Shown piece after piece: positions 28,353-47,249 of a stretch of 64,000 bases of DNA. The stretch spans positions 1,054,001-1,118,000 of the forward strand of contig NZ_CP093340.1 in the NCBI RefSeq assembly GCF_022637415.1. Reading direction: 5' to 3'. Position numbers and translations under genes: made by a program. Below the pieces are notes generated by a model, which made no database searches, was not told the DNA's origin, and saw only the letters and a program-made list of their open reading frames with translations. The stretch comes from Luteimonas sp. S4-F44. GTDB lineage: Bacteria > Pseudomonadota > Gammaproteobacteria > Xanthomonadales > Xanthomonadaceae. Within the stretch, counting starts at the first letter, position 1; the number at the start of each line of letters is the position of its first letter.

Positions 28353-28742
28353 TCACGCCGCCCACCTGCCTGCTGCGCTTGTCTCCGCCTGCATATCGGC
28401 AGCTTCTTCACTCTCTCGCTGTAATCGATCTTCAGCCATATCGCGCAGCCGAGCTTCGCGGGCTTCGCCATGGACTTGCGCGAGTCGATACAAGCGGATG
28501 AGAAGGTCTGAGCCGAGGAGGTCGGACGGCTCCACTTGATGCAAATCAGCAAGTGCGCGCTCGATGGCGCTGTAGTGCTCGCCATCGAAGGCGCCGTCGT
28601 TCCAGCTGTCCGCTTCCTCGACCGAGCTGGGATCGGTACGCAGTTGCTCGACGAGCTCATCGATCCGCTCGTTCTCGGCTTCTTGACGCTCGACTTGCGA
28701 GAGATGGGTATCTAGGTCCACGGAGATCGCGCAGTGCCACAT
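28353..28742 (-). CDS. Hypothetical protein of the phage left operon
   Basis: 129 residues, acidic, mostly helical (RQEAENERIDELVEQL, LADLHQVEPSDLLGSDLLIRLYRLA), with no family I recognise. The start is well supported by AAGGAG seven bases before the ATG. It is driven by the leftward operator-controlled promoter at 28782-28810, so it corresponds in position to the first gene of a lambda PL operon, where antiterminators and recombination or anti-host functions sit. It is the only gene left on that operon. Confidence 0.65.
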   Translation of the reverse strand: MWHCAISVDLDTHLSQVERQEAENERIDELVEQLRTDPSSVEEADSWNDGAFDGEHYSAIERALADLHQVEPSDLLGSDLLIRLYRLAQVHGEAREARLRDMAEDRLQRESEEAADMQAETSAAGRWAA

Positions 28743-28781
28743 CTATCTGCTCCTTAGACGCCGGCTCCTCCGGCTGCCTCA

Positions 28782-28823
28782 ACTATAGGCTGACCTATAT
28801 ACTGGGTCAATAGGTGAACCTAT
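28782..28823 (-). promoter_or_regulatory. Leftward phage promoter PL with two repressor operators
   Basis: Minus strand: -35 TTGACC (28805-28810), 17-base spacer, -10 TATAGT (28782-28787). Two 14-base near-palindromes of the form ATAGGnnnnCCTAT lie at 28785-28798 and 28810-28823, 25 bases apart, one over the -10 and one over the -35. The same boxes occur at the rightward promoter. Confidence 0.85.
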
Positions 28824-28944
28824 GACGCCGGGCCAGGGCCTTGCGTGAACAAGGCCACAGGCAGCAGATGCTTACTTGATGATCTAACTCGCCGAATCAG
28901 CGTGAGAGATCGAAAATTGGCGAAAAGCGCGGACGCGTTCTACA

Positions 28945-29388
28945 TCAACAGGCGGGTAAACAGTCAGGCAAACTGGCCCCTGTTTCCGCGGCGTCCACAT
29001 ATCCATGCATGCGACTCAGCAGGTCGTCCAGCTGCGGATCGGTCAAGTCCGACAGGTAGCGAACGCCTTTTGTCACTAAGAAGTGGCGTACGGCAATCTG
29101 CCAGTTGTAGGCGTTCGCGATGTGCATGATCTCGTGCATCTTGGTAGCACGGGGTGAGACGTCAACTGCTTCAAGCGCAGTCCAATCCGCAAGAGCGGAA
29201 CGAATCGAAGACAATCTAGGCGACTGAGGCCCGTTAGGCGCGCTTTCGTGTCCGACCAAGCGCAGGTCGCGCGGAACCCCCATTTTTCTTTTCGCGCGCT
29301 GCGCCACCAGTTGAGCCATCCTTTCTATCCTTTGATCCCTGTCCAACACGATCTCCTGACTGCACTCGTTGCACAAAACGTTCGGCAT
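28945..29388 (-). CDS. Hypothetical protein downstream of the phage repressor
   Basis: 147 residues if started at MPNVLCNECSQEIV (29388). The N-terminus has a CNEC pair that could bind metal; the C-terminus reads LSDLTDPQLDDLLSRMHGYVD and ends in Cys. This start overlaps the repressor gene by 155 bases in another frame; later Met codons at 29319 and 29283 would reduce the overlap. The protein reads as real, with normal amino acid use. It is probably co-transcribed with the repressor from PRM and expressed in the lysogenic state. Confidence 0.55.
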   Translation of the reverse strand: MPNVLCNECSQEIVLDRDQRIERMAQLVAQRAKRKMGVPRDLRLVGHESAPNGPQSPRLSSIRSALADWTALEAVDVSPRATKMHEIMHIANAYNWQIAVRHFLVTKGVRYLSDLTDPQLDDLLSRMHGYVDAAETGASLPDCLPAC

Positions 29389-29794
29389 CAGCAGGGGAGG
29401 CTTCAAGCGTGTCTCCCTCCAGCACCGCCTCCAAGGCGAGGGCCAGAAGCTCCGCATCCTCTGGATCGGCAGGGTCCAAAGGGTGCGGATCGACGAGCGA
29501 GGTCTCTGCCAATCGAGCCGCGGCGCGGATGATGTCGGCGTTCAGTCGCTTGGGCTGCGACTGATCGCTCTGACCCGTCATGATCCACATCGGGCTGACA
29601 CGAAGGTACTTGGCAGCAGCCATCAGGTTGTCCGCCATGATCATGGCAGTCGCAGGCTTTGAGTCGGTGTCGTTGAACCACTGGTTGATCGACGGCTGGC
29701 TCTTGCCGCATGCCTTGGCAAGCCCGAGCTGCGACAAGCCATGAGGCTTGCCCGCGTCGAGCTTCTCTTTGATCCGTTTGGCCCAGGGCTGCAT
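29234..29794 (-). CDS. Phage CI-like repressor without a peptidase domain
   Basis: 186 residues. An N-terminal XRE helix-turn-helix (LSQLGLAKACGKSQPSINQW, residues about 20-40) resembles P22 C2/lambda CI. The family usually ends in an S24 (LexA-like) autoprotease with a Ser-Lys dyad; here the C-terminus is a helical acidic stretch followed by a basic tail (ALGRTRKRA), with no S24 motifs. RecA-triggered self-cleavage is therefore not expected. Three operators precede the gene and two more lie by the left promoter, the arrangement of lambda OR and OL. Confidence 0.85.
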   Translation of the reverse strand: MQPWAKRIKEKLDAGKPHGLSQLGLAKACGKSQPSINQWFNDTDSKPATAMIMADNLMAAAKYLRVSPMWIMTGQSDQSQPKRLNADIIRAAARLAETSLVDPHPLDPADPEDAELLALALEAVLEGDTLEASPADAERFVQRVQSGDRVGQGSKDRKDGSTGGAAREKKNGGSARPALGRTRKRA

Positions 29795-29860
29795 TAGGCC
29801 AGCCTACCTAAACCGGATATAGGTTGGCCTATTGACCTCTGAAATAGGCAAGCCTATAGT
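29794..29860 (+). promoter_or_regulatory. OR region: three operators, PR and probable PRM
   Basis: Operators at 29794-29807 (TTAGGCCAGCCTAC), 29819-29832 (ATAGGTTGGCCTAT) and 29844-29857 (ATAGGCAAGCCTAT) repeat at exactly 25 bases. PR is TTGACC (29832-29837), 17 bases, TATAGT (29855-29860), identical to the left promoter. On the minus strand a TATATC -10 (29816-29821) without a good -35 suits an activator-dependent PRM for the repressor. Confidence 0.88.
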
Positions 29861-29866
29861 CAGGCC

Positions 29867-30172
29867 ATGGACGCAGCCAAGATCATCAACTTGTTAGGCG
29901 GGACAGTCGCGGTGGCCCGGCTATGCGAAGTCAAGCCGCCTTCCGTCAGTGAATGGAAGCGCAAAGGAATTCCTCGCGCACGGCTTCAGTACCTGCGCGC
30001 GATCAGACCTGATGTCTTTGTCGATCGGGCTGCTCGTCGTCGAAAAGCCCAAGTCGCGAAAAGGAGCTCTGCCAGCTCGCTCTTGCCCCCCACCGACCTT
30101 CAGGCAGGAACCACATCTAGGCCCGGTCGTCAGGTCGTCCCCGTTCCGTCTTTGGCTATGGATCAGCATTGA
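29867..30172 (+). CDS. Cro-like regulator, probably translated from a leaderless mRNA
   Basis: 101 residues. The first 50 form a Cro/YdaS-type helix-turn-helix (LLGGTVAVARLCEVKPPSVSEWKRKGI), which reads as a small DNA-binding protein competing with the repressor at the shared operators. The tail is basic and low complexity. The ATG lies six bases after the PR -10, exactly where transcription should start, so the AUG is expected at +1 and there is no ribosome site. It is the first gene of the rightward early operon. Confidence 0.8.
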   Translation: MDAAKIINLLGGTVAVARLCEVKPPSVSEWKRKGIPRARLQYLRAIRPDVFVDRAARRRKAQVAKRSSASSLLPPTDLQAGTTSRPGRQVVPVPSLAMDQH

Positions 30173-30306
30173 GTCGAAACACATGCGAGACGTTGGTCAG
30201 CAGGTCGATCTTCGGCCGCTGGAGCCATCTGTGCGCGCAGAGCTAGTCGAGCTTGTCAGCAACTGATTCGGGCAGCCATTGCGGGTGCCATAGGAAGGAT
30301 CGCAGC

Positions 30307-30657
30307 ATGAGTACGCAACCCGATCTCGTATCCGGAGATCCCATCGATGCGATGCTATGTGAGAACGCGTCGGTCTTCCGTCCAGGATTTCAGGCCTGGG
30401 TGAAAGACAACCGCCACATCTGGCGTGCGTTTTGTCGGGAGGCCGACCGTGCCTGGGCTCGCGGACGTCAGCACTATTCGGCGCGGACCATCATCGAGTA
30501 CCTACGGCATGAGACGTCCATGTCGGAATCCGGCTGCATATTCAAGATCGATGGCAATTGTGTGCCCGACATGGCGCGGCTCTATCGCCTGATCAATCCG
30601 GACCGCGCCGGACTGTTCGAAGTCCGGGTTATGCCCGGTAGCGTGCGGGCGGCCTGA
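30307..30657 (+). CDS. Conserved phage early protein, function unknown
   Basis: 116 residues with a compact, Trp/Tyr-rich sequence (FQAWVKDNRHIWRAFCREAD, HYSARTIIEYLRHET) that reads as a conserved phage early protein, though I cannot name the family. AAGGA precedes the ATG at 30307. Its stop is one base from the start of the replication-type gene, so the two are coupled. A DNA-binding or replication-accessory role is possible from position only. A 27-codon frame at 30184-30266 between this gene and cro is not convincing. Confidence 0.6.
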   Translation: MSTQPDLVSGDPIDAMLCENASVFRPGFQAWVKDNRHIWRAFCREADRAWARGRQHYSARTIIEYLRHETSMSESGCIFKIDGNCVPDMARLYRLINPDRAGLFEVRVMPGSVRAA

Positions 30658-30658
30658 C

Positions 30659-31498
30659 ATGGCGGATTGGATCAAGATGCGCGGAAACCTGTGGGACGAC
30701 CCTCGGGTGTCGGCCATTTGCGATGTCGCAGATAGCACAGAGGCGGCCGTGATTGGAGCTCTGTACTGGCTGTGGGCGTCGGCCGACCAGCACACCGAGG
30801 ACGGTGAATTGCCAGGTTTGAGCCTGCGCCAGATCGATCGAAAGACCGGGCTGCCCGGATTCGGTGAAGCGATGGTGCAAGTCGGTTGGTTGGAGCCAAC
30901 CGAAGGCGGCGTGCGAATCGTGAGATTTGAAGAACACAACGGCTCTTCCGCAAAGCGTCGGGGCCTCGATGCGCAGCGAAAGGCAAGTGTCCGCAAGATG
31001 TCCGCATCCGATGCGGACAAGGTAAGGACGAATCTTGGAGGGATTGCGGAGCCAGAGAGAGAAGAGAGTGAGAAGAAGCAAGAACAAAAGCTATCTCCTT
31101 CGCTTCGCTCAGGAGAAGCGCGCAAGCGCGCGGCCACTCAGTCCCTTCCTCCCGATGGCGTTGACTCGCAGATCTGGCAGGACTGGCTCGCGCTACGGCG
31201 GGCCAAGCGCGCTCCGGTGACAGAAACCGTGCTGCGCTCGGCGCGAGCTGAGGCCGGTAAAGCAGGCATGTCGTTAGATCAATTTCTCAGCATCTGGTGC
31301 GCGCGCGGTTCCCAGAGCCTGCAAGCCGAGTGGCTCAAGCCTCATGAACGAGCGGGGCCAGCGCCGCTCGTGCAGCAGTTGAGCAAAACCCGTAACGCAA
31401 TCCAGAAGCTGCAGGCGATGAAGATTGATGAACGTCGAGACGTGGATCCACAACGAGATTATGGATGGCCTGAGCAAGCTGCTTTGCCTAGGGCTTGA
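30659..31498 (+). CDS. Phage replication protein, lambda O/DnaT-like
   Basis: 279 residues. The first 110 (MADWIKMRGNLWDDPRV, VIGALYWLWASADQHTEDGE, GWLEPTEGGVRIVRFEEHNG) form the winged-helix region seen in phage replication initiators. A charged linker follows, then a DnaT-like helical domain (GVDSQIWQDWLALRRAKRAP, LDQFLSIWCARGSQSLQAEW). Such proteins bind the phage origin or load the helicase. The linker may hold the origin, as in lambda O, but I see no iterons. It is coupled to the upstream gene and overlaps the next by 71 bases. Its presence means the element descends from a replicating phage. Confidence 0.7.
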   Translation: MADWIKMRGNLWDDPRVSAICDVADSTEAAVIGALYWLWASADQHTEDGELPGLSLRQIDRKTGLPGFGEAMVQVGWLEPTEGGVRIVRFEEHNGSSAKRRGLDAQRKASVRKMSASDADKVRTNLGGIAEPEREESEKKQEQKLSPSLRSGEARKRAATQSLPPDGVDSQIWQDWLALRRAKRAPVTETVLRSARAEAGKAGMSLDQFLSIWCARGSQSLQAEWLKPHERAGPAPLVQQLSKTRNAIQKLQAMKIDERRDVDPQRDYGWPEQAALPRA

Positions 31499-31853
31499 TC
31501 GTGTGCCTGCCGCTGACCTGATCGAGGGAACCGCCGCGACGTGGGGGCAGGCGCTGACGCTGGGAAAGCAATGGGATCGCGAGCTCGATGCACCGCGGTT
31601 TCGACACGCCTTCATCGCCCTGGCTGCACGGCAGAAGACATGGCCCGCACCTGCCGATTTCGTGGAGCATCTTCCGCCACGTCGGCAACTCGTACTTACC
31701 AAGCAGCATATCCCCGCCGATCCCGAGCGGACTGCGGTCGCCGTCGACGAGATCGCGAAGATGCTTCGTCCCTGCAGGACTCGGACGAGAGTGCGCGGAA
31801 GACAGGTACGGGGGGCGCACGACGAAGATGAGAACTGGGAAATTAAGCGATGA
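31428..31853 (+). CDS. Phage replication accessory protein, lambda P-like position
   Basis: 141 residues from the ATG at 31428 (a TTG sits one codon earlier). The core DAPRFRHAFIALAARQKTWPAPADFVEHLPPR is a pattern met in phage proteins placed after the initiator, in the helicase-loader slot. There is no Walker motif. The overlap with the initiator and the ATGA overlap with the next small gene support translation. The helicase-loading role is inferred from position only. Confidence 0.6.
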   Translation: MNVETWIHNEIMDGLSKLLCLGLDRVPAADLIEGTAATWGQALTLGKQWDRELDAPRFRHAFIALAARQKTWPAPADFVEHLPPRRQLVLTKQHIPADPERTAVAVDEIAKMLRPCRTRTRVRGRQVRGAHDEDENWEIKR

Positions 31854-31984
31854 AGGCCGCGACGATCGTAGATCGAGGCGGGGCTGCTGCCATCAGCAGC
31901 GCTTTGTTTATGCGCATGTCGGATCCGGAATCGGACGTGCGTGGCCAGTCGGGCCAAGCAACCGATAGAACGAGGTGGAAATGA
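31850..31984 (+). CDS. Small phage early ORF, 44 codons
   Basis: 44 residues (MKAATIVDRGGAAAISSALF at the N-terminus). The ATG overlaps the preceding stop (ATGA) and its own stop overlaps the next ATG, so the frame is part of a coupled chain. No recognised domain. The overlaps at both ends argue that it is translated. Confidence 0.45.
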   Translation: MKAATIVDRGGAAAISSALFMRMSDPESDVRGQSGQATDRTRWK

Positions 31985-32100
31985 ACAGCTGCACGCAACA
32001 CGAGATGGGCCAACGATGCGCGTGCCGCGCTCGCTCACGGGGCTCGGCAATCACGCCCGTCGCGCCTCTGTTTGCGAGAGGAGCGCTGTATGCAAATTGA
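31981..32100 (+). CDS. Small phage early ORF, 39 codons, Cys/Arg-rich
   Basis: 39 residues with three cysteines near the start (SCTQHEMGQRCACR). GAGG lies five bases before the ATG. It overlaps the 44-codon frame on one side and the antiterminator-position gene on the other. Lambda-like phages carry small Cys-rich nin-region proteins in this place; identity is not known. Confidence 0.45.
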   Translation: MNSCTQHEMGQRCACRARSRGSAITPVAPLFARGALYAN

Positions 32101-32518
32101 CACCTTTGGTATTTATGTTCGTGCAGAACTGGATCATTGGGGTTTCGAGTTTGCGCTGCATCGAGACGTGGAGTACCTCGGTTATGCCAGCCGTAGTGTT
32201 CTGCAGATGCTGATCGACCATCGCGGAGAAATGCCGGAACTTTCGAAGGGCTACAAGCCGCTGGAGACCGACAGTAGGGCGCAGAAGATCGAAGATATCG
32301 TGACGGCGATTTCCAGGACACACCGGTCGATGGCAATCTGCCTGCGAGGCTATTACTGCGCTCGAGGCCGCAGGCGAGTGGAACGATACGAGACCGCGCT
32401 GATGTTGCTGACCAACGCCGGTGAGCCCGTGATGAGCGCAACCGCTTATCTGGACTTGTCGCGGCGTGGCGAAGAGCGGGTGAGAGGTATCTTGGAAGGG
32501 TTGGCGATGGCGGCCTAG
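32090..32518 (+). CDS. Candidate late-gene antiterminator (Q position)
   Basis: 142 residues from the ATG at 32090, with AGGAG seven bases upstream. The sequence is basic and helical (KIEDIVTAISRTHRSMAICL, GRRRVERYETALMLLTNAG), like small phage Q proteins that lack clear signatures. It is the last gene of the early operon, followed 235 bases later by a strong promoter with a dyad between -35 and -10 and a terminator just downstream. That is the lambda Q-pR'-tR' layout. The Q assignment rests on context; no homologue is recognised with certainty. Confidence 0.5.
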   Translation: MQIDTFGIYVRAELDHWGFEFALHRDVEYLGYASRSVLQMLIDHRGEMPELSKGYKPLETDSRAQKIEDIVTAISRTHRSMAICLRGYYCARGRRRVERYETALMLLTNAGEPVMSATAYLDLSRRGEERVRGILEGLAMAA

Positions 32519-32752
32519 CTGGCTGCGATGGGCGGAGGATCGCGCAGCTTCGCGACCGGCAGGCAATGGCGCGTCTGCAGGTATGAGCATGAATCGGGTC
32601 GCCGCGCGCCTTGCAGCGGCGTGGGCAGGGGGAATCGAGTGACACCGTCGCGATTCGACAAGCGCGATCGCCATGTCGATGGCGCACAGCGCTTCCGAGT
32701 TCCCGGCTTGGATCAGTGACTTACCTTGCTGTTGGATATTTGCTCTGGAGTC

Positions 32753-32781
32753 TTGACAGGTCGGACCTGTGTCTGTATACT
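32753..32781 (+). promoter_or_regulatory. Late promoter (pR'-like) with a dyad in the spacer
   Basis: TTGACA (32753-32758), 17 bases, TATACT (32776-32781): five of six and six of six against strong consensus forms with ideal spacing. The spacer starts with AGGTC-G-GACCT (32758-32768), a perfect dyad. In lambda the Q-binding element lies in the same place. The 234 bases before it hold no convincing gene. Confidence 0.85.
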
Positions 32782-32804
32782 TCATGGCAACTTGAAGTAA
32801 GTCT

Positions 32805-32830
32805 GCCCAGCCACTGCGCTGGGCTTTTTT
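32805..32830 (+). terminator. Intrinsic terminator just after the late promoter (tR'-like)
   Basis: GCCCAGC (32805-32811) pairs with GCTGGGC (32818-32824) around a six-base loop, followed by T6. The transcript from 32788 would be only about 40 bases, like a reduced lambda 6S RNA. The rest of the 599-base gap at 32519-33117 contains a second hairpin and no supported gene. Confidence 0.88.
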
Positions 32831-33073
32831 GTGGTTGCTTGCTCATACTGCGCACGCTTTCTTTGGTGATAAGCCGCTGCTGACGTCGCCACGTTTCTAG
32901 TGACGGATCCTGCTGTGAGAGCAGGTGCTTGCGAACTGCGACGACATTGAAGGCGTGCCCCATCATCGACTTACAGAGCGGTGGTGTCGCACGGCCGCGC
33001 TGCTCTTAGGGTCGGCGGCCTTCAGGCCGGCCTTCCCGTTGATGCTGTTATGAACCACCACGATGACCTCTCA

Positions 33074-33110
33074 CGCCCTGGCTTGCCGCCGGGGCGTTTG
33101 CATTTTGAGT
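33074..33110 (+). terminator. Second terminator-like hairpin before the lysis genes
   Basis: A 9-bp stem (33074-33082 with 33088-33096, one U-G pair) with a five-base loop, followed by TTTGCATTTT. It ends eight bases before the endolysin ATG, so late transcripts must read through it. Confidence 0.6.
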
Positions 33111-33117
33111 CCCTAGA

Positions 33118-33651
33118 ATGAGTATTGAGCGCGCGCGTGCGATCAACGAAACGGCGATCGCGCCAGCGCTGCGGCTGCTACCCGCGAGGATGGACGCGCC
33201 AGCCGCTCGTATCGTGCTACTGGCGATATGCGGGCAGGAGTCGGACTTCCGATACCGCCGACAGATTGCCAGCGCCAGGGCATTCGGGCCGGCTAAGGGG
33301 CTATGGCAGGGTGAGCTTGGCGGTGGTCTCGTCCACGGCGTGCGTCGGCATGCTGCGACCAGACAGTACGCGGCTGCGCTCTACCGCGCGCGGGCGGTGG
33401 AACCGACCAACCAGGCGATCTGGGATGCGATCGAGCATGACGATGTACTTGCAGCGGGTCTCGCGCGTCTGCTGCTTTGGAGCGACCCTCGCGCATTGCC
33501 TGCAGCCGTCGACGTTGATGGCGGCTGGCAGCTGTACTTGCGGACCTGGCGTCCTGGTGCGTACGCCCGCGGTACACCCGCGTACAGATCCCGCTTGCGG
33601 GCGAAATGGGACGGGTACCACGCGACGGCGCGCGAAGCGCTGGAGGCTTGA
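33118..33651 (+). CDS. Phage endolysin, lysozyme-like/transglycosylase fold
   Basis: 177 residues. AICGQESDF carries the likely catalytic Glu, followed by FGPAKGLWQGELGGG, the order seen in lytic transglycosylase-type phage lysins; C-terminal helices (GGWQLYLRTWRPGAY) complete a small globular protein. No signal peptide, so it needs the holin to reach the wall. The start has only a weak ribosome sequence. Its stop shares one base with the next ATG. First gene of the lysis cassette. Confidence 0.72.
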   Translation: MSIERARAINETAIAPALRLLPARMDAPAARIVLLAICGQESDFRYRRQIASARAFGPAKGLWQGELGGGLVHGVRRHAATRQYAAALYRARAVEPTNQAIWDAIEHDDVLAAGLARLLLWSDPRALPAAVDVDGGWQLYLRTWRPGAYARGTPAYRSRLRAKWDGYHATAREALEA

Positions 33652-33992
33652 TGAGTCGACAGTCGCACGATGGCCGAATCCACTTCGCTTTGGGGCAGGT
33701 CGAACGATGGGTCGTTGCTGGCGGCGCGGGCCTGTTGTCTGTGCTCGGCGGGCTGGTCTATGCGGGCGTCACGTCGAGAATTGACTTGCAAGCTCGGGCG
33801 CAAGCTGAGATGAACTCGACGTTGACCGAGATCTCAAAGCAGCAGGCGGTCACTAACGGCCAGATTCAGACACTGAGCGCACAACTCGCCGATGTGCCGC
33901 GTCTTTCTCGCGACATGGCCGAGGTCAAGGTGAGAGTGGATCAGCATGAGCAAAGCATCCGCGAGCTCAGGCAGACGAGGGCCGCGCGATGA
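33651..33992 (+). CDS. Small membrane protein with a coiled coil in the lysis cassette
   Basis: 113 residues: one membrane helix (VVAGGAGLLSVLGGLVYAGV, about 20-40) and a long heptad region after it (EMNSTLTEISKQQAVTNGQI ... VDQHEQSIRELRQTRAAR). Its place between lysin and holin suggests a holin-related or lysis-timing role. Overlap of one base with the lysin and 4 bases with the holin indicates coupled translation. I do not recognise a named family. Confidence 0.6.
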   Translation: MSRQSHDGRIHFALGQVERWVVAGGAGLLSVLGGLVYAGVTSRIDLQARAQAEMNSTLTEISKQQAVTNGQIQTLSAQLADVPRLSRDMAEVKVRVDQHEQSIRELRQTRAAR

Positions 33993-34234
33993 GCGAAGCC
34001 GTGATCGTGACGGACTGGCGCAAGGTCTGGCGCTACTACTCGACATGGGTGCTGGCGCTCCTAGCGCTGATGCCTGATCTGTACGCCACGCTGGTGGCAT
34101 CGGGATTGCTGGCTGGCGACGGCATTCCGTCCGTCGCCTCGTGGATCATCCGCTGTCTTGCCGTTGCGGGCATTGCATTGCGCTTCGTCAGCCAGGCGCG
34201 TCCGGCGAAATTGTCGACTCGCGAGCCGTCGTAA
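33989..34234 (+). CDS. Phage holin, two-helix type
   Basis: 81 residues with two membrane helices (STWVLALLALMPDLYATLV and WIIRCLAVAGIALRFV) joined by a short loop, and short polar ends, typical of small class II-like phage holins in this operon position. It would form lesions letting the endolysin cross the inner membrane. ATGA overlap upstream, TAATG overlap downstream. Confidence 0.75.
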   Translation: MSEAVIVTDWRKVWRYYSTWVLALLALMPDLYATLVASGLLAGDGIPSVASWIIRCLAVAGIALRFVSQARPAKLSTREPS

Positions 34235-34599
34235 TGCGAGAAATCCTGGTGGCTCTTCTCTTGCTTGCAGTGATGTTCGGCGGTGTGCAGTCATGCAGGC
34301 TGTCCATCCGGAAAGAGGTACTCGCCGAGCAGGGAAGGTCGCTCGCGCGCTCCGACGTCGAGCTCACGCAATGCCAGGTCTCGCTGCGTGAAGCGGGCCG
34401 CGGTCTGGCCTACGGTCAAGCCAGAGCTGATGCGCGGGAGCAAGCCGGGCGCGCCGCATTGGAGAGGATCGGGAGCGTAACGGAGGCCATGACGAGCGAG
34501 CGCGTTCGCGTCGAGCGCGTACTGGTCGAATCCAAGCGCGATCTGACGTGTGTTGAGCAATTGGAGGTGAAACTGTGCCCAAGTATCCCTTTGCTCTGA
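34234..34599 (+). CDS. Inner-membrane spanin (Rz-like)
   Basis: 121 residues: a single N-terminal membrane anchor (REILVALLLLAVMFGGVQSC) followed by a periplasmic coiled coil (RSDVELTQCQVSLREAGRGL, RVRVERVLVESKRDL). This is the i-spanin design. The Rz1-like gene starts inside its end in another frame, the classic Rz/Rz1 arrangement. Together they fuse inner and outer membranes at the last step of lysis. Confidence 0.78.
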   Translation: MREILVALLLLAVMFGGVQSCRLSIRKEVLAEQGRSLARSDVELTQCQVSLREAGRGLAYGQARADAREQAGRAALERIGSVTEAMTSERVRVERVLVESKRDLTCVEQLEVKLCPSIPLL

Positions 34600-34865
34600 T
34601 GCTGCCGCTCCTGACCGGATGTAAATCGGTGCCGAGCGTGTCGGCCGCTATGCAGCCTAATGTGCACGTCGTCACGCGCCACATCCCAGTGCCAGATTCG
34701 CTGACTCGTCCTTGTCCGATCGCCGATCTCGATGATCGCAGTGTGGAATCAGTCGTGCGCGCGGCTAACGCCCGTCGATTGGCGCTCGAACACTGCAACG
34801 CTCAGTTGCGGGAGATTCGAGACTTGGATGCGCAGACGCTGCCTATGCCTGAGGTTACGCGCTGA
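34575..34865 (+). CDS. Outer-membrane spanin lipoprotein (Rz1-like)
   Basis: 96 residues starting at GTG 34575. The lipobox LLTGC puts the lipidated Cys at residue 16. The mature part is unusually long for an o-spanin and ends in a helix (VESVVRAANARRLALEHCN). It overlaps the last 25 bases of the Rz-like gene. It is the last lysis gene; head genes would normally follow. Confidence 0.78.
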   Translation: MPKYPFALMLPLLTGCKSVPSVSAAMQPNVHVVTRHIPVPDSLTRPCPIADLDDRSVESVVRAANARRLALEHCNAQLREIRDLDAQTLPMPEVTR

Positions 34866-35044
34866 TACATCGGCTGCACAAAAGACCGGCGTATGTAGCC
34901 GGCCGTTCTTGAGATCTGTACATCCAGATAGAAGGCTCCGCTGGGGCGCCTGGCTCCTGCAACGAAGAGTTTCAACCATATCCGGCTTGCTGCGGCTACC
35001 ACCGGCCGAGCTACCGACACGATCGAAGAATGACTAGGACGCTC

Positions 35045-35431
35045 ATGATCGAAACAATCATTCAGAGTCTGCTGACCGCGCAGCCTGCGCTTGCGGGTGG
35101 GCAGGTGTACACCGACGTTTTGCCTGATCCAGTGCAGAGCCCCTACATCACACACCGCTACCTGGGCGGCGAGCTGGGCATGACCTTCCGCGGGCCCGAT
35201 GGCAGCGAGGCAGGCAGTGTCCAGATCGATTGCTGGGCCGAGAGTGCTGGGGAGGCAACCACGCTCGCGCTGCAGGTTTACAAGCGCCTTTCCGAGCAGA
35301 ACACAGATTTCGCTGCCAGCAGTATCCGGCGGCTCCCAAGTGCGTACGACCTGAACACGAAGTTGCATCGCGTGTCGTGGGAAGTCGCCATCACCATTGC
35401 CATCGCAATCGACCAAGAGGAACAATCATGA
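35045..35431 (+). CDS. DUF3168-type tail terminator/completion protein
   Basis: 128 residues from the ATG at 35045, which has AGGA six bases upstream (an ATG at 35030 would add five residues). The sequence (VYTDVLPDPVQSPYITHRYL, GSVQIDCWAESAGEATTLA) has the DUF3168 pattern of tail completion proteins in siphophages, which cap the tail tube at its head-proximal end. It overlaps the tube gene by 4 bases. It is the first morphogenetic gene after the lysis cassette. Confidence 0.78.
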   Translation: MIETIIQSLLTAQPALAGGQVYTDVLPDPVQSPYITHRYLGGELGMTFRGPDGSEAGSVQIDCWAESAGEATTLALQVYKRLSEQNTDFAASSIRRLPSAYDLNTKLHRVSWEVAITIAIAIDQEEQS

Positions 35432-36559: not shown

Positions 36560-36589
36560 AGTAGCCGCAAAGACCTCTGCTGGTTCTAG

Positions 36590-36629
36590 GGGGCGCCGTT
36601 CCATGAGGGGCGGCGCCCCAGCATCTTTT
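36590..36629 (+). terminator. Strong hairpin between T and the tape measure
   Basis: GGGGCGCCG (36590-36598) pairs with CGGCGCCCC (36611-36619), 12-base loop, then a short TTTT at 36626-36629. It lies 30 bases after T and about 90 before the tape measure ATG. A terminator or mRNA processing/attenuation structure is possible. Confidence 0.5.
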
Positions 36630-38266: not shown

Positions 38267-38277
38267 ATGGACGAAGA

Positions 38278-38739: not shown

Positions 38740-38752
38740 GAGATTGACGAGA

Positions 38753-39747: not shown

Positions 39748-42700
39748 TCGAGTGCCCGCCGGTCTGTAGCCGGCTGATCACCAGTCCGCATCCGGTGACG
39801 GATGATGGCCAGCAAAATCGCGTTGCCCAGCTGCTTCCAGGAGAGAAACTAGGCGACTTCCTGCGGCGGGAGGTGGATAACTGGACGGGTGACGCCTGGG
39901 AAGTGCGGATCAACGGCGTGCTGGTGCCGGTCGAACTCATGGAGCGGGTACGCCCACGCGACGGCACGCTGATCGAGGTCCGCAGCCTGGTCGGCAAGCA
40001 GGCGCTGTACATCGTCGCGCTTGCGGTCCTTACGTACTTCACGTTCGGTGGGGGTGCAACCGGGGGCGGGATCCTCGGTAATGCGACGGGTGTCGGTACG
40101 TTCTTTGGCGCAAGCGGTTTCGTGGCAGCAGGATTGGCATCCGCCACCTTTGTCGCGGGCAGCATGCTGATCAACAAGGTCTTGGGGCCCAAGCCGGCGG
40201 GTAGCGGGCAATCCCAACAGAATACGGTCTACAACGTCGGCTCGAGTCGCAACCAGGCGCGGCAGTACCAGCCGTTTGCGCTGACTTTTGGTCGCGTGAA
40301 GTTCGCCCCCGACGTGCTCAGCGCACCTTACAGCTGGTACGAGGGCGACGACCAGTTCGTCGGGCTGGTGTTGACGCCTGGCGTCAACGTGCACCGTGTT
40401 GAAGAACTCTACCTTGGCGATGCGCTGCTGTCCTCGTTCGAGGGAGTGGAGACGTTCTACGCCGGCTTCCCAGGCATGCCTGAGCAGAAGATCCCACTGT
40501 ACAGCAACGCGGACACGATCCAGGGCGGTGAGCTCAACAAGGACCGCACCTGGGTACAGCGCACAACGCCGGCGCGGACGGTCCGTATCCAGATCAACCT
40601 CGAGTATGTGCTGGGCGACCAGACGAGTAAGGGCAAGCCCTACACGAACATCGAGACGGTCGAGGTGCAGTATTGCCCAGTTGGTACGGGGGCGTGGACG
40701 CCGCTGGTGTCCCGCAATTTCGCGAACAGCGACTACAACCCCCACCGTGCGACGCTGGCGCGCGACGTGCCGGAGGGACAGTACGACGTGCGCGTCCGCA
40801 TCCAGGGCCGCGCGATCGATGGCGGCGGCTCTAACGGCCGTTCGCAGTGGCAATGGACCACGATGACCGCGGTCCAGACGGATACAACCGATTACGCCGG
40901 TATTCCCCGCATCGGCGTTCGGATGAAAGCGTCCGGTCAGCTTCAGAACGCGCCCGACGAAATTCGCTGCGTCGTCGTCAGCCGGCCGGTACCGGTCTGG
41001 ACGGGCGCAGAGTGGGTAACGCGCGAGACGAGTAACCCTGGCGCTCACCTGCTTGCATACGCCCGCGGTATCAATGATGAGAATGGCCGGCGGATCGCCG
41101 GTATCGGCCTGTCCGAGGAGATGATTGACATTGCCGGCTTGCAGGCGTTCATGGCGCATTGTGAGGCCGAGAGCTTCAGCTACAACTACGTCGTCAAGGA
41201 CGCGCGTAATCACGACGAAATGGTGAACAGCCTGGCGTTGGCCGGCTTCAGCCAAGTGACTTGGGCGCAGGGCCGGCTGTCGCCCGTGTGGGCGGCGGAC
41301 GAGCAGCCGCTGAGTGGCGTAGTCGGCATGGGCAACATCAAAAGAGGGCAGTTCCAAGTCGATTACACCTTGGCAAATGCTGCCGACGGTATCGAGTTCA
41401 CCTACTACGATGCAGAGGACTGGAGCACTAAGACGCTTCGCATCCCGGCACCCGGCGCTACCACTATGCTCAATCCTGCGCAGGTGACAGGCGAAGGCAT
41501 CACGAGTGAAGCGCATGCGGCCATGATTGCAAGGTGGCATCTTGCGCAGAGCCTGTTCCAGTACAAGAGCATCACATACGCCACAAATCTTGAGCATCTG
41601 TCCTATCGACGGCTGTCGATGCTGTCGTTGTCTCACGACCTCACACAGTGGGGGATCAGCGGCACGGTAAAGGCCGCGCGTATCGACAACGGCGTGGTTA
41701 CGATCGAGCTCGATGAGCCGGTCCCGCCGCCCGAGCAGGGCCGGGCCTATCTTGGCCTGCGCATCCCGGGTGAACGCAATTATCGTGTATTCGAAGTCAG
41801 GCCATTCGTCGAAAAGTCGAGCGTCCTGCAATTGGTTGACGCGTGGCCGAGCGATGCCGCCCTGCCGGGCGACAGCGAGGGTAATCCTGCCTGGGATACG
41901 CTTTGGTGCTATGACTTCAAGTCCACCCCCGGTTATCGCGTGCGCGTGGTCGCGATGGAACCGGAAGCGGACATGAAGGGCGCCAGGGTATCGGTTGTGC
42001 CCGAGGGGCCCGAGTTCTGGGAGTACGTGCGGACGGGGCGCTACATCCGGCCGCCGAACCAGTCGCTGCTGCAGACGCGCCCGGTCGCGTCGGACCTGCA
42101 GGTCAGCGAGCGGCAGGTGGTTCAGGGCGACACTGTCTACACGGAGCTGGTCGCGCAGTGGGAGGTCAGCGGCCCGGTCGGCGACACCGTGGTGCAGATG
42201 GCCGACGCGAACGGCCAGCTGCAGGAAGTCGCGCGCACGACGACGCGCAGCGCCGCATGGCGCATCCCGGGCGCGGGCACGTATCAGATTGCGGTGCGCC
42301 CGTTCGCGCCGGACGGCCGGCCGGGCATCGCCACGGGCACGATCTACAGCACGATCGGCGCCGACGCGCCGCCGGTGCTGATCGACCTGTTCGACGTCGA
42401 GGAGCGTTCCGGCGGCGTGCGGCTCTACACCTGGGGTTGGTTCGACGGCACGACGCGGTCGGCGGATTTCGCCGGCGTCGAGATCCGCGTCACCGCCGGT
42501 AAGGTCGCCGCGCCCGACTGGGACGCGATGCAGCCGGTCGGCAATGCCGACGGCTACCACACGGCGCCGTTCGAAGCCGTGGTGCCGGAATCCGGTGATT
42601 GGACGTTCGCGGCGCGCTCGCGCAACACCAGCGGCACGCTGTCGACCGGCATGCGCGTGGTCGCCAGGACGCTCGGCCGGAATCTTGGCGAGCAGATAGG

Positions 42701-45700
42701 CGGCATCGGCGACGACCTGGGTGCGATCGGCGACAAGGTCTCGAAGGAGATCGCCGACCGGTTCGAGGCCGACGCCAAGGTCGCGAGCGACGCAGCCGCC
42801 GATGCGGCGAGCAAGGCCGAGGCCGCACGAATCGCTGCGATCAGCGCGGCGTCGACGGACGCGACGGCCAAGGCCAACGCGGCGCGGACCGCGGCTGTTG
42901 CCACGGCATCGGCCGATGCGACGGTCAAGGCCAACGCTGCGCGGGACGAAGCCGTCGCGCGCGCGGATGCGGCGATGGCGCAGGCCGAAGCGCTGGCCGC
43001 CGAGATCGCCGAGATTGTCGGCGCCCCCGAGTGGGAGCCCGGCGCGACCTATAACGCCGGTTGGCTCGTCCGCTACGACGGCGGCCTGTACCGCGCCCGC
43101 GTGCAGACGACCGGCCAGAACCCGGCGTCGACGCCGACCGCCTGGGAAAAGCTCGGCGACTACGACAGCGTCGGCGAAGCCCTTGCGGCTGCGCTGGCCG
43201 CGACCACGCAGATGGCCACGGACCTCAACGCCGAGGTCACCCGCCTGGACGCGGTGGTAGCCCGCCTGCCCAGCGGGAATGGCGCGCTGGCGGCCCAGGC
43301 CACCGTGGCAGCGAATGAGGCCGCCAGCGTGAGCCGCGATAACGCGCTCGGCCAGCGGACGACCCTCATCGAGACGCGCATGCCGAGCGGTACCGGCGCC
43401 CTGGCCACCCAAGCCACGGTCGCCGCGAACGAGTCGGCGAGCGTCACCCGCGACCATGCCCTGGGACAGCGGACCACCGTGATCGAGGCCCGGATGCCGG
43501 CCGGCACCGGTGCGCTGGCGACGCAAGCGGTCGTGACCGCAAACGAGGCCGCGAGCGTGTCGCGGGACAACGCGTTGGCGCAGCGCGCTTCTGTCATCGA
43601 GGCGCGCATGCCGACGGGGTCGGGCTCCCTCGCGACAGCGGCCAGCGTCACCGATGCCGCGCAGGCTGCGGCGAGCGCGAACGCTGCAAACGCGGAGCGC
43701 ATCGAGGACGTGCGTGCCGTCATCGAGGGGCCGACTGTCAATCTGGTGGTCAATGGCAATTTCGCAGACGGCCTCGCGAACTGGGCGACGTCTCCGTCGA
43801 ACCAAGCGGATACGGGCGTCTTCGACAGCGCCGAGCAAGCTATGTACGCGGCCGGTGCCTTGCGCAAGGGCAACATCGTCCCGGTCACGCTGGTCCGGGG
43901 CAAGACCATGCGGATCGAGGTCACCTACAAGACCACCGCGGGCTATACCGGCTGGTCAGCAGGAGGCGCGGGAATCGTCACCGGGTTAAGTGGAACGGCC
44001 TGGATTGGCAGCACGATCAGCCCTTCAACGTTCACGCCTACAACCACCTACCGGACGGTGGGCGCCAACATCGAGATTCCATCCAACGCCCCCTCGCAAG
44101 GTTACGTGCGGATCGCGAACGCCGGCGTCACGGGCACTGAGCCAGGGGTGTGGATCAAAGAGCTCCGGCTCACTCAGCCGACCTCGATCTCTGATCTGCA
44201 GCTGCAAAGCAACACGCTCGCGCAATCATTGATCGTCACTGATGCCAAGGTCACGCAGCAGGGCACCGACATCACGTCGCTGGCGAGTCGAACCGCGGCG
44301 CTGGAAACCAAGGCCCCGGTCGACGGTGGTCGCGCCGCGAGCGAGGCGCGCGTGCTCTCGGTCGAACAGGCCGCTGCGACTGCGAACAGCGCGCTGGCGA
44401 ATCGGACCAGCGTGATTGAGGGGCGCATGCCCACCGGGAGCGATAAGCTCGCAAACGAAGCCCGGGTAATCGCTGCGGAGAATGCCGCTGCCACGGCAAA
44501 TAGTGCCCTCGGTCAGCGGCTCGACTCGGTCAGCGCGGCGTTGAGCAATGCAGGCGGCGACAATCTGCTCGCGAACTCTTCGTTTGAGGAGTGGAACGGC
44601 CAGAACGTTGCAGACAGCTTCCGGGGCTGGACCATCACCACCTCGAACATCGCGGCAGGCACACGCTTCAGCTCGCAGGTTCCATCAATCAGTCCGCGTG
44701 GAAAGGGGCTGGCATTTCGACAGGTCGGTACAGGAACCGGGACGAATACGCCTTATATCGAGGTTCGGCAAGATATCTCGGGGCTAAAAGCCGAAGAGAC
44801 CTATACGTTTTCGGCATGGGGCCAGAGCCCCACGAGCGAAGGGCCGGCCCCGCGAATTTACTTGCTGGCGTACAGCGCAGCAGGCGCTGTTGTGGGTACA
44901 ACTGTACAGTCGATTGGCGCATCAAGTCTCGAGCCGCAGTTTCTAAGCGTTACTCGAAAGTTCCCAACCGGCGCTGCGTATTTCCGAGCGATCTTGCGTT
45001 CGCAAGGCGTGCTAAACACCGCATCGCAGTTCGATTTCATATTTGATGACGCCAAGTTGCAAGTCGGCGCCACGGCTACGGCGTGGTCCGAATCGTCGAT
45101 CGACGTGAGCAGCAACATCAACGCCGTTAACACGGCGAGTGTCGATCGCGACACCGCGCTCGGCACCCGGACGACCGCGATCGAGGTGCGCATGCCGTCC
45201 GGCGCGGACAAACTGGCGACCGAGGCGCGCGTGGTGTCCGCAGAACAGGCCGCCGCGACGGCCAACTCGGCAACAGCCAGCCGGGTGACGGCCGTCGAGG
45301 GCAAGCTGCCAGCCGGCGACGGGCGCGCGGCGAGCGAGGCCAGCGTGACGCAGCTGCAGACAGTCGTCGCGACGCAGGGCCAGCAGCTCGCGCAGCAGAT
45401 CACGACCGTCGACAGCAAAGCGGGCAGCGCCCAGTCGACCGCGACGCAAGCGCTGGCGGCGGCCAACGGGGCCGCGTCCGCAATTATCGACGTGCGTTCG
45501 AATCAGACCGGCGGAGGCAACCTGCTGCGCAATGCTGATTTTGGCGGCAACGGCGGCGATATCGGTAGCGGCTGGGAATGGGGCGTTCTGATGTGGGCGT
45601 CGCGCACCGCTTCCGTAAATCTGGCTCAGCCGCAGTGGAAACCTGATGGCGTTAACTCTTTCGGAATCACCGCTTCTGGCACCCCAACTGGTGCAAATTA

Positions 45701-46301
45701 TCTGGATAGCATTGGCGTGCCTGCTGTGCCGGGCGAGAAATACATCGTTTCGGCGTACTTAGCTAATCACCGCTGCCTGGGGCACGTTGAAGTCCAGTTC
45801 TTGAACGCCAATGGCGATTTGCTGCTGTACGTTCGCAGTAATCAGTATCAGGCTGGTGGCGGCAACGCCATCGCCGCATGGGCTAGGGCAGAGGTGAGCG
45901 GAACAGCACCAAGCGGTACAACGCAAGTTCGGATGCGGTGGGGGTCGGAAAGCCCGGGGGACGGTCCGTACGCATGGATCGCAATGCCGATGCTGGAAAA
46001 GGCAGCGCCTGGGCAAACGCGGCCGTCGCCGTGGTCTGCTGGCGCAACGGGGCTCAACCAGGCCACATTCTCGCTCCAGTCAGGGCTCAACGCCAAGGCG
46101 GGCCTGTACCTGACGAACGGTAACCTGATTTCCGGGTTCGAGAGCGTCAACGACGGCGTGCGGTCGGAGTTCAATGTGTTGGCGTCGGTGTTTCGTATTG
46201 TGGCACCTGGTGGTGGCGAGCGTACAGAGTACAGTGATGGAAGCTGGCGCACCTACGATAGAAACGGGGTGCTCCGCGTGCAGTTGGGGGTCTGGGCCTG
46301 A
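39738..46301 (+). CDS. Giant central tail fibre (TipJ/lambda J-like) with I-like N-domain and mosaic sugar-binding C-half
   Basis: 2187 residues. Residues 1-160 look like a tail assembly (I-type) domain with a beta-grasp part (DFLRREVDNWTGDAWEVRIN) and a hydrophobic hairpin, fused in frame to J. About 160-1000 is the J hub, with fibronectin-like parts near the end. A coiled coil runs 1002-1090. A CBM5/12-like chitin-binding motif (WEPGATYNAGWLVRYDGGLY) is near 1098-1142. Three 38-residue repeats follow (1183-1297), then jelly-roll-like domains near 1334-1480, 1606-1790 and 1926-2100, divided by more repeat units, and a DUF1983-like end. This is the receptor-binding protein that would set host range. 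Confidence 0.82.
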   Translation: MGLIECPPVCSRLITSPHPVTDDGQQNRVAQLLPGEKLGDFLRREVDNWTGDAWEVRINGVLVPVELMERVRPRDGTLIEVRSLVGKQALYIVALAVLTYFTFGGGATGGGILGNATGVGTFFGASGFVAAGLASATFVAGSMLINKVLGPKPAGSGQSQQNTVYNVGSSRNQARQYQPFALTFGRVKFAPDVLSAPYSWYEGDDQFVGLVLTPGVNVHRVEELYLGDALLSSFEGVETFYAGFPGMPEQKIPLYSNADTIQGGELNKDRTWVQRTTPARTVRIQINLEYVLGDQTSKGKPYTNIETVEVQYCPVGTGAWTPLVSRNFANSDYNPHRATLARDVPEGQYDVRVRIQGRAIDGGGSNGRSQWQWTTMTAVQTDTTDYAGIPRIGVRMKASGQLQNAPDEIRCVVVSRPVPVWTGAEWVTRETSNPGAHLLAYARGINDENGRRIAGIGLSEEMIDIAGLQAFMAHCEAESFSYNYVVKDARNHDEMVNSLALAGFSQVTWAQGRLSPVWAADEQPLSGVVGMGNIKRGQFQVDYTLANAADGIEFTYYDAEDWSTKTLRIPAPGATTMLNPAQVTGEGITSEAHAAMIARWHLAQSLFQYKSITYATNLEHLSYRRLSMLSLSHDLTQWGISGTVKAARIDNGVVTIELDEPVPPPEQGRAYLGLRIPGERNYRVFEVRPFVEKSSVLQLVDAWPSDAALPGDSEGNPAWDTLWCYDFKSTPGYRVRVVAMEPEADMKGARVSVVPEGPEFWEYVRTGRYIRPPNQSLLQTRPVASDLQVSERQVVQGDTVYTELVAQWEVSGPVGDTVVQMADANGQLQEVARTTTRSAAWRIPGAGTYQIAVRPFAPDGRPGIATGTIYSTIGADAPPVLIDLFDVEERSGGVRLYTWGWFDGTTRSADFAGVEIRVTAGKVAAPDWDAMQPVGNADGYHTAPFEAVVPESGDWTFAARSRNTSGTLSTGMRVVARTLGRNLGEQIGGIGDDLGAIGDKVSKEIADRFEADAKVASDAAADAASKAEAARIAAISAASTDATAKANAARTAAVATASADATVKANAARDEAVARADAAMAQAEALAAEIAEIVGAPEWEPGATYNAGWLVRYDGGLYRARVQTTGQNPASTPTAWEKLGDYDSVGEALAAALAATTQMATDLNAEVTRLDAVVARLPSGNGALAAQATVAANEAASVSRDNALGQRTTLIETRMPSGTGALATQATVAANESASVTRDHALGQRTTVIEARMPAGTGALATQAVVTANEAASVSRDNALAQRASVIEARMPTGSGSLATAASVTDAAQAAASANAANAERIEDVRAVIEGPTVNLVVNGNFADGLANWATSPSNQADTGVFDSAEQAMYAAGALRKGNIVPVTLVRGKTMRIEVTYKTTAGYTGWSAGGAGIVTGLSGTAWIGSTISPSTFTPTTTYRTVGANIEIPSNAPSQGYVRIANAGVTGTEPGVWIKELRLTQPTSISDLQLQSNTLAQSLIVTDAKVTQQGTDITSLASRTAALETKAPVDGGRAASEARVLSVEQAAATANSALANRTSVIEGRMPTGSDKLANEARVIAAENAAATANSALGQRLDSVSAALSNAGGDNLLANSSFEEWNGQNVADSFRGWTITTSNIAAGTRFSSQVPSISPRGKGLAFRQVGTGTGTNTPYIEVRQDISGLKAEETYTFSAWGQSPTSEGPAPRIYLLAYSAAGAVVGTTVQSIGASSLEPQFLSVTRKFPTGAAYFRAILRSQGVLNTASQFDFIFDDAKLQVGATATAWSESSIDVSSNINAVNTASVDRDTALGTRTTAIEVRMPSGADKLATEARVVSAEQAAATANSATASRVTAVEGKLPAGDGRAASEASVTQLQTVVATQGQQLAQQITTVDSKAGSAQSTATQALAAANGAASAIIDVRSNQTGGGNLLRNADFGGNGGDIGSGWEWGVLMWASRTASVNLAQPQWKPDGVNSFGITASGTPTGANYLDSIGVPAVPGEKYIVSAYLANHRCLGHVEVQFLNANGDLLLYVRSNQYQAGGGNAIAAWARAEVSGTAPSGTTQVRMRWGSESPGDGPYAWIAMPMLEKAAPGQTRPSPWSAGATGLNQATFSLQSGLNAKAGLYLTNGNLISGFESVNDGVRSEFNVLASVFRIVAPGGGERTEYSDGSWRTYDRNGVLRVQLGVWA
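43287..43628 (+). repeat. Three tandem 114-bp (38-residue) coding repeats in the J-like gene
   Basis: Units at 43287-43400, 43401-43514 and 43515-43628 encode variants of LATQATVAANEAASVSRD followed by ALGQRTTVIEARMPSGTGA. Further diverged copies lie near 44270-44520 and 45130-45350. The pattern suits a trimeric fibre stalk. Confidence 0.85.
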
Positions 46302-46573
46302 TGCCTTCTGGGATTTGCGTGTGGAATGCTGACGGGACGCTTCAGTTCGATAGCAGCAAGCGTCTGTTCCGGTTGCTGACTGCTGCCGACATCGGCGACA
46401 CCAGTTCGGGCTCCTATACGGTCAGCGGGGTGCAGGGGACGCTCAAGGTAGTAGCGATCCCCACCGAAGAGACCGGGACCGCGCCCGTGGTGACCGTGTC
46501 CGGGAACAACGTCTCTTGGAACTATGGGGCTGGCGGGCGCCAACGTCAGAACTTGATTATGGTGGAGTATTGA
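46301..46573 (+). CDS. Small tail-fibre accessory protein
   Basis: 90 residues, beta-rich (SGICVWNADGTLQFDSSKRL, TVSGNNVSWNYG). ATG overlaps the J stop by one base. The opening pattern, with a short strand naming a property and a D-G turn, resembles that of the next gene (MPAGIKIWNDYGTIMIDD), so the two may be related tip decorations. No named family. Confidence 0.55.
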   Translation: MPSGICVWNADGTLQFDSSKRLFRLLTAADIGDTSSGSYTVSGVQGTLKVVAIPTEETGTAPVVTVSGNNVSWNYGAGGRQRQNLIMVEY

Positions 46574-46574
46574 G

Positions 46575-47249
46575 ATGCCGGCGGGGATAAAAATCTGGAA
46601 CGACTACGGGACGATCATGATTGATGACACGAACCCGTCTGTTGCCCTGCGCGAAAAGAAGATCACATCCACTCAGAATGCCTATGTCCCACCGATTACG
46701 TTCTCGGGAGCCGAGACCCCGATTTTTGCCGGGTTCCTGGAGGGCGAGTGGTGCATGAACTACACCACGATCAACGGTTCTAACCGTACGTGGGGGTGCA
46801 TTCTTAAGGCTGGGTACCAAGGGGTGAGGTCATTCACCAGCTATATATTCGACCGCCCTGTAACCCAAAACTCGAAGTCTGGCCTTGTCATCCGGGATGC
46901 CCAGGGACGCGTGACTTTCGATGCCTTGAGCAAATATGGGGTTGTTGTTGCCACCCTCAGTCAAGGTCAGACTTTCACGGGGGAGGTTGGCAGGCAATAC
47001 GCTGGAGTAATCCTCGTTCAGCGCCAGATCGAGACCTTGGAATCCACCGACATCATTGGGCAGAAGGTGCGGCGGTTCTATCGGACGGGACTCAGCATGA
47101 CTACCCTAGTAGGTAACCCGGTTCGTCCATACGTCCAGTTGGTCGACGTGATGACATCGGAGATCTACTACCCGACCGCCGATCAGAACTTTGTTCGAAA
47201 CTACGGTAGCGTCCCCCAGGCTCTAGTGCTCGATGTTACGGGGTATTGA
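46575..47249 (+). CDS. Hypothetical tail-tip protein, last gene of the tail module
   Basis: 224 residues, beta-rich with an N-terminus like the preceding gene (PAGIKIWNDYGTIMIDDTNP), then VRSFTSYIFDRPV and DAQGRVTFDALSKYG. The repeated DxxGxxxFD pattern is common in fibre-associated proteins of siphophages. It is one base after the upstream gene. Lower GC than the chromosome. Function unknown. Confidence 0.55.
   Translation: MPAGIKIWNDYGTIMIDDTNPSVALREKKITSTQNAYVPPITFSGAETPIFAGFLEGEWCMNYTTINGSNRTWGCILKAGYQGVRSFTSYIFDRPVTQNSKSGLVIRDAQGRVTFDALSKYGVVVATLSQGQTFTGEVGRQYAGVILVQRQIETLESTDIIGQKVRRFYRTGLSMTTLVGNPVRPYVQLVDVMTSEIYYPTADQNFVRNYGSVPQALVLDVTGY

Follow-up and report, generated by a model that had tools for sequence, protein, structure and literature searches.

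A head-less, tail-encoding lambda-like element in Luteimonas sp. S4-F44 with an internally deleted tape measure

The F-type pyocins of Pseudomonas aeruginosa are under PrtN/PrtR control and occupy a fixed locus. They are made up of a lambda-related non-contractile tail operon and lysis genes, with no head. The same combination is found in a lambda-like insert of about 19.8 kb (28240-48012) in Luteimonas sp. S4-F44, where the control is instead a phage-type switch and the locus is sporadic. This element lies in the window, by which we mean the whole stretch of 64,000 nucleotides that was analysed (contig NZ_CP093340.1, positions 1,054,001 to 1,118,000), part of a genome assembled as one contig of 3.69 Mb (completeness 100, contamination 0.23). 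An earlier note on this DNA held that its gene content defines an F-type tailocin, possibly at an intermediate stage of domestication. Is the locus a weapon, or is it the wreck of a prophage? The tests that bear on this question lean to the wreck, because the presence of the locus is sporadic, its relatives are full prophages elsewhere, the site is empty in the closest genomes and the middle of the tape measure has been lost.

The closest described system is rhizoviticin of Allorhizobium vitis, presented as an F-type tailocin encoded by a head-less chimeric prophage and seen as perhaps an early step on the way from prophage to tailocin (PMC10811719); the idea of an intermediate stage is thus already in print for another group. 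As far as that description goes, the two loci share a head-less siphophage-type tail with lysis genes, a phage-type repressor, replication genes, a position adjoining a tRNA gene, no att (attachment site) duplication found, and intact prophages among their relatives that share the tail segment. They differ in that rhizoviticin is a reported carrier of antagonistic activity, which for the element here would be a prediction. Similar rhizoviticin loci are reported in eight strains at one site, against one genome here; its repressor is of the LexA family, against one in which no S24 domain was matched; and it has an integrase remnant, where none was found here (PMC10811719). The gutted tape measure of the Luteimonas element may be a further difference. 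Tailocins as described in a review are without head, replication and packaging genes (PMC12090994), while the element here, like rhizoviticin, keeps a replication gene. Among the papers listed by our literature search, no title or abstract opening dealt with a Luteimonas tailocin, though such a paper may still exist.

The presence of a head-less element that encodes tail proteins was confirmed. From left to right it carries minus-strand genes, a helix-turn-helix (HTH) repressor, a Cro-like gene, early genes with an O-like initiator, a gene in the position of Q, a promoter-terminator pair, a lysis cassette, the tail operon and two small genes. It lies between the stop codon of pilE on the left and the terminator of tRNA-Asn on the right:

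27811-28239, host pilE, a type IV minor pilin, adjoining the insert on the left
28240-48012, no strand assigned, the whole inserted element, with bounds from empty-site comparison with G007/L011 and G037/L010
48052-48128, minus strand, host tRNA-Asn; the hairpin beside the tRNA, and its 3' end, face the insert on the right

Beyond the tRNA are a GspH-type gene and an open reading frame (ORF) of 685 amino acids at 48904, a probable uvrB. The two closest genomes, G007 and G037, have identical UvrB fragments and are both empty at this site. Homology between the window and G007 stops at 28214, within pilE, and restarts at 48013, while with G037 it stops at 28194 and restarts at 48047; the gap between pilE and the tRNA is ~175 bp in G007 and ~130 bp in G037. 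The pilE relative of G007 (L011, 65-444) matched as two overlapping pieces in different frames, and that pilin copy may be frameshifted. A search with part of the 685-residue ORF gave matches in 50 of the 52 genus genomes and yielded 30 loci, own genome counted. All 30 have tRNA-Asn beside the locus, and a pilin adjoins it in 21 of the 29 others (3.6 kb fetched per locus).

The closest tail relatives are prophages of Luteimonas sp. XNQY3 (G013) and BLCC-B24 (G044), which have the same tail order and the same slippery site. They differ from the element in having head modules, full-length tape measures of 1055 and 1056 residues, other chromosomal sites and no relative of its replication gene. 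Upstream of the same tail operon G013 has genes for a terminase, a major head protein, two portal-family proteins, an adaptor, head closure and neck proteins, and G044 has a terminase, portal, protease, major head protein, adaptor and neck gene. In the window the corresponding place is a short scar:

34866-35047, no strand assigned, scar where relatives have the head module; homology to relatives begins at 35020, at the end of their neck gene

The blastn homology to both prophages begins at that same base, 28 bp before the start of the tail terminator gene, and the stretches 34866-35047 and 28240-29000 had no match among the fetched relatives. The earlier note had reported no terminase, portal, protease or capsid gene on the element. 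This was borne out by a tblastn search of the window with 14 proteins from G013 and G044 that belong to head, packaging or neck, in which no hit reached E <= 1e-3 (the best had 0.10); head genes elsewhere on the element, which that note held to speak against a tailocin, were likewise not found by this search. The terminase and capsid profile search that it proposed as a check was made with five families (PF03237, PF03354, phrog_9, PF04860 and PF05065), all of which gave 0 matches in the own genome; the same searches were positive in 6, 3, 4, 4 and 4 of 14 control genomes, respectively. The G013 terminase, in a single-protein search run without a control, also found 0 matches in the own genome. 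The absence of an integrase was upheld as well, the three Phage_integrase matches of the genome all lying outside the window. The right end of the element, 47250-48012, was considered as an integrase remnant and rejected: its two scanned ORFs had no PHROG match, blastn to the fetched relatives was empty, and the genome-wide integrase search places none there.

The lysis genes are followed directly by tail genes, as first noted, with 182 bp between Rz1 and the tail terminator. The tail operon and the genes behind it are as follows, all on the plus strand:

35048-35431, tail terminator (PF11367, phrog_347)
35428-35883, tail tube (phrog_158, E 1e-22), 86% identical to G013 and 84% to G044
35883-36287, tail assembly chaperone G (PF06222, E 1.6e-17)
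36275-36559, GT extension (phrog_337) by a -1 frameshift at GGGAAAC (36275-36281)
36720-37775, tape measure of 351 amino acids, internally deleted and with no hydrophobic segment; about residues 72-766 of the relatives are gone
37775-38131, M-position tail protein (phrog_384), 48-49% identical to the G013 and G044 proteins in the same place
38278-38739, minor tail protein L (phrog_396, E 1.7e-23)
38753-39160, accessory gene between L and K, with no family; 36% identity to a gene downstream of J in G013
39364-39747, K, an NlpC/P60 protein (PF00877), 77-78% identical to G044 and G013; the ORF opens at 39247
39738-46301, central tail fibre J of 2187 amino acids in an open frame (phrog_31, E 2.4e-132); the N-terminal ~1000 residues are 72-74% identical to G044 and G013
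46301-46573, small gene after J (phrog_2427)
46575-47249, gene after J (phrog_4062)

To call this a full siphophage tail set, as the earlier note did, was an overstatement, as a separate I gene was not recognised and the tape measure is about two thirds shorter than in the relatives. Aligned with the 1055-residue protein of G013, residues 1-68 of the window protein correspond to 1-71 and residues 62-350 to 767-1054, so that ~694 residues are missing, in frame. The tail relatives number 11 (G013, G044 and L041-L049), with L047-L049 counted as one lineage as their tube DNA is identical. Their tape measures are complete in seven (~1043-1115 residues) and run off the contig at 457-747 residues in three; the contig of L046 ends before the gene. 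All 10 relatives with tape-measure sequence have a hydrophobic segment near residue 413. With a Kyte-Doolittle average of 1.4 across 19 residues as the mark of such a segment, a threshold of our own choosing, G013 and G044 have two, near 295 and 414, both within the part that the window protein has lost. No segment of this kind is seen in the window protein, whose maximum is 0.88. The short tape measure had no relative but itself in a set of 7262 candidates, which ranged from 0.55 to 1.75 times its length. This loss, absent from the earlier note, is the most telling feature of the locus.

What such a protein could do may be judged by analogy with phage TP901-1. There, three parts of the tape measure are described as needed for infection, namely its first 154 residues, its last 60 and the first hydrophobic region; infection was abolished when this hydrophobic region, or portions of the first 154 residues, were deleted (PMC5099701). 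Tail length followed 0.145 nm per tape-measure residue with an intercept of 127 residues (PMC5099701). On this relation the window protein predicts a tail of ~32 nm, or ~53 nm if 0.15 nm per residue is taken with no intercept. The analogy is limited, since the host of TP901-1 is Gram-positive and its authors, in the account given there, consider a membrane-insertion role of the hydrophobic regions less likely (PMC5099701); it does not prove that stub tails would be unable to kill.

Other length differences were seen along the operon. The chaperone G genes of G013 (L004, 18371-18970) and L046 (3675-4274) have an extra ~190-200 bp in mid-gene that is absent in the window; in G013 this stretch sits within one open frame. 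Between GT and the tape measure, L042, L043, L047, L048 and L049 have ~0.45-1.85 kb of extra DNA, and the gap in the window is 160 bp with a strong hairpin at 36590-36619. The accessory gene at 38753-39160 also differs in its place in the late region, being between L and K in the window and downstream of J in G013.

How widespread is the element? Of the 52 genus genomes, 3 have the tail tube (the own genome, G013 and G044), and these were also the only 3 carriers among 395 family genomes; a scan of a wider genome-contig collection added only the same two tube relatives. The other two carriers are full prophages at other loci and the closest genomes are empty at the site, which is not the picture of a locus fixed across species. 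As the collections hold one genome per species, this distribution compares species with one another. The earlier note had named sporadic presence together with att sites as the mark of an ordinary prophage; the former is found and the latter is not.

The age of the losses can be bounded from the open frames. The absence of any nonsense change in ~10.0 kb of tail genes with relatives limits neutral drift to ~1.0% per site (95%, indels ignored), or to 1.4% when J is cut to its conserved part. A previous bound of 0.6%, drawn from all chosen ORFs, was set aside as partly circular, the ORFs having been picked for being open. In uvrB a synonymous distance of 0.20-0.22 separates the host from its closest genomes. 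The present data fit a recent loss and ongoing selection alike. On the window branch the ratio of nonsynonymous to synonymous substitution rates (dN/dS) is higher in the tape-measure C-terminus (0.36 vs 0.19) and in M (0.29 vs 0.09) than between G013 and G044, with the other five of seven tail segments not clearly so; recombination or relaxed selection may account for these two.

The best reading of these data, and in our judgement a probable one, is a young defective prophage. A lambda-like siphophage would have integrated, or been moved, between pilE and the tRNA-Asn terminator in one Luteimonas lineage. The head and packaging module, whose loss is seen in the comparison to reach from just after Rz1 as far as the end of the neck gene, probably went in a single deletion, and the in-frame deletion seen in the tape measure took ~694 residues with the hydrophobic segments. 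The early switch and the late promoter are probably still able to fire, and induction would then lead to synthesis of the lysis and tail proteins. The cell would lyse and, taking 0.145-0.15 nm per residue, release at best stub tails of ~30-55 nm, which would miss a region on which infection by an analogous phage depends. Because of this the element would kill few or no neighbours, with its other frames open mainly through youth. A recent neutral relic, within the drift bound of ~1.0% per site, explains those open frames. The traits of a defective prophage that were found are close kinship with full phages combined with the absence of whole modules, sporadic presence with empty sites in kin, and an internally deleted tape measure; genes with no close relatives could be truncated unseen. 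If this reading is right, a prophage can mimic a tailocin exactly by gene content, and tape-measure length needs checking before head-less loci are called weapons. Several observations weigh against it, however. The head deletion leaves both Rz1 and the tail terminator whole, and the tape-measure deletion preserves the frame, as 1 in 3 would by chance. The window and 11 of 11 relatives all have GGGAAAC in the correct frame where G ends. None of the seven tail segments compared has an internal stop, and the tail genes with relatives are all open. Over these segments (1940 codons, G and GT outside the set) dN/dS is 0.24 on the window branch vs 0.21 between G013 and G044, although the window branch may largely predate the head loss. 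If the insertion were as old as the host's split from its closest genomes, the open frames would need selection, given the synonymous distance in uvrB. Tails may still form here, since a TP901-1 mutant with neither hydrophobic region had heads and tails separated and yet made tails (PMC5099701). Finally, neither a repeat search nor the empty-site comparison found a direct repeat linking the two element ends; loss of one end is a possibility that would explain this.

Several of these points serve the main rival, a functional F-type tailocin under domestication whose stub tail would bind by J, kill, and be released by lysis under the phage switch. We think this unlikely. The head-less tail operon with its lysis cassette would suit it, as would the in-frame tape measure, the kept slippery site and the low dN/dS; TP901-1 tails form without hydrophobic regions (PMC5099701), and rhizoviticin is a described precedent with a CI-like repressor, replication genes, a tRNA-side location and no att duplication (PMC10811719). 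It is opposed by the sporadic locus, by a short tape measure found in one genome only, of which the greater part is gone together with the hydrophobic segments, and by an SOS link that is not evident because no S24 domain was matched in the repressor. A more specific version seems rather improbable: a miniaturised tailocin in which, once the head was lost, selection cut the tape measure down to ~350 residues, and which would kill by a stub tail of 30-55 nm with full-size J under the phage repressor/Cro and Q-type switch, with no hydrophobic tape-measure segment. Were the stub tail to work, non-contractile tails could kill with a short tape measure lacking such segments, and this would bear directly on how F-type tailocins breach membranes. 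As for the earlier claim that gene content defines an F-type tailocin, the head-less content, the lysis cassette and the kept switch and replication gene do fit an early stage, but gene content alone is no definition; likewise an intermediate stage of domestication fits that content and the rhizoviticin precedent (PMC10811719), while the evidence leans to the wreck. Two further explanations have little to recommend them. Loss of the head genes and the tape-measure middle during assembly is very improbable. Two clean deletions in one element, as seen in the assembly, would suit it, but the genome is a single contig with the completeness and contamination given above, and the element repeat search found no repeat pair at the joints, where a collapsed repeat would stay invisible. 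That the element donates tails to a head-only partner sharing its cell, either a satellite or a defective prophage, we regard as the faintest prospect: the tail-only content and own late control would agree with it, but the genome matched neither one relative's terminase nor any of the five families of terminases, portals and capsids that were searched, and a gutted tape measure makes a poor donor.

The early region comprises the following genes:

28353-28742, minus strand, phrog_14373 protein (PHROGs E 1.3e-19)
28945-29457, minus strand, ORF overlapping the repressor ORF, start uncertain, with no PHROGs match
29234-29794, minus strand, HTH repressor at the CI position (HTH_3 E 4.7e-7; phrog_4 E 1.6e-12, residues 2-94); its C-terminal part overlaps the next ORF
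29867-30172, plus strand, Cro-like DNA-binding protein (phrog_8008, phrog_409)
30307-30657, plus strand, early protein, phrog_13625 (scanned as 30253-30657)
30659-31498, plus strand, O-like replication initiator (phrog_2509, E 6.1e-46)
31428-31853, plus strand, early protein, phrog_8159 (E 1.6e-35)
32090-32518, plus strand, late-regulator candidate at the Q position, with no Pfam or PHROGs match but with homologues and a weak PA0613_fam match

The lambda-style CI/Cro switch proposed for the element holds in part. Both the HTH repressor and the Cro-like gene were matched, but for the repressor this covers the HTH only, no S24 cleavage domain being matched in Pfam, PHROGs or NCBIfam. The initiator match bears out that a replication gene is kept. 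Its gene was found in 1 of the 52 genus genomes, the own genome, and 27 relatives on viral contigs share only this gene with the element (flanks of <=10 kb fetched per side).

For the protein at the Q position the protein collection contains 113 homologues apart from the protein itself, of which the nearest is 94% identical and lies on a 17.4 kb contig; none was found among the viral contigs searched. Its match to PA0613_fam of NCBIfam is weak (19.5 bits against a cut-off of 100); PA0613 is a gene of the P. aeruginosa pyocin region, and the match serves as a lead only. The protein may represent a late-regulator family with no model in Pfam or PHROGs. The stretch that follows, 32519-33117, had a blastn match to the own genome only among the fetched relatives, and contains two candidate signals:

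32753-32781, plus strand, late promoter candidate, TTGACA-17-TATACT (11/12 of consensus)
32805-32830, plus strand, leader terminator candidate, a 7-pair stem with a T run ~24 bp downstream of the -10 element

A Q-type late switch would fit the position of the gene and a promoter followed by a hairpin-T terminator (32753-32830), the support being the 11/12 score and the context. The Q-type late promoter claimed previously is thus consistent with the layout, but the protein at 32090 has no Pfam or PHROGs family and the scan shows no clear excess: in the region 4 promoters were found against 4.0 +/- 1.9 expected in shuffles, and 19 terminators against 12.9 +/- 4.1, again no clear excess.

The lysis cassette is dedicated, with a holin, a LysC/Rz1-like protein and a putative endolysin assigned by family or relative, all on the plus strand:

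33118-33651, putative endolysin, phrog_3108 (a PHROG of unstated function); a relative is under a 'lysozyme' feature in Aeromonas phage 4_D05
33651-33992, lysis-cassette protein, phrog_33341 (E 6.3e-21, scanned as 33606-33992), with one hydrophobic stretch by eye
33989-34234, holin (phrog_1356 holin, E 2.9e-10)
34234-34599, Rz-like by position and N-terminal hydrophobic stretch, with no family match (scanned as 34237-34599)
34575-34865, Rz1-like (LysC; PF23793, E 7.4e-13)

The early/lysis arm and the tail arm look mosaic in origin, because 15 of the 23 loci with endolysin relatives share that gene alone and 8 share one or more others. Bordetella phage vB_BbrS_PHB09 (MN103401) has relatives of both the tail tube (34.5%) and the putative endolysin (54%). 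It differs in being a complete phage with terminase, portal, protease and capsid, in having the endolysin relative after the tail fibre, and in its tape measure of 1191 residues.

Directly upstream of the insert, 23132-28239 carries PilX, PilY1 and ComP/PilE-type minor pilin genes. Near it, on the other side, 51167-59911 encodes a protein of 2914 amino acids that combines a glucoamylase domain with the supersandwich and catalytic domains of GH94, a layout that resembles that of cyclic glucan synthases.

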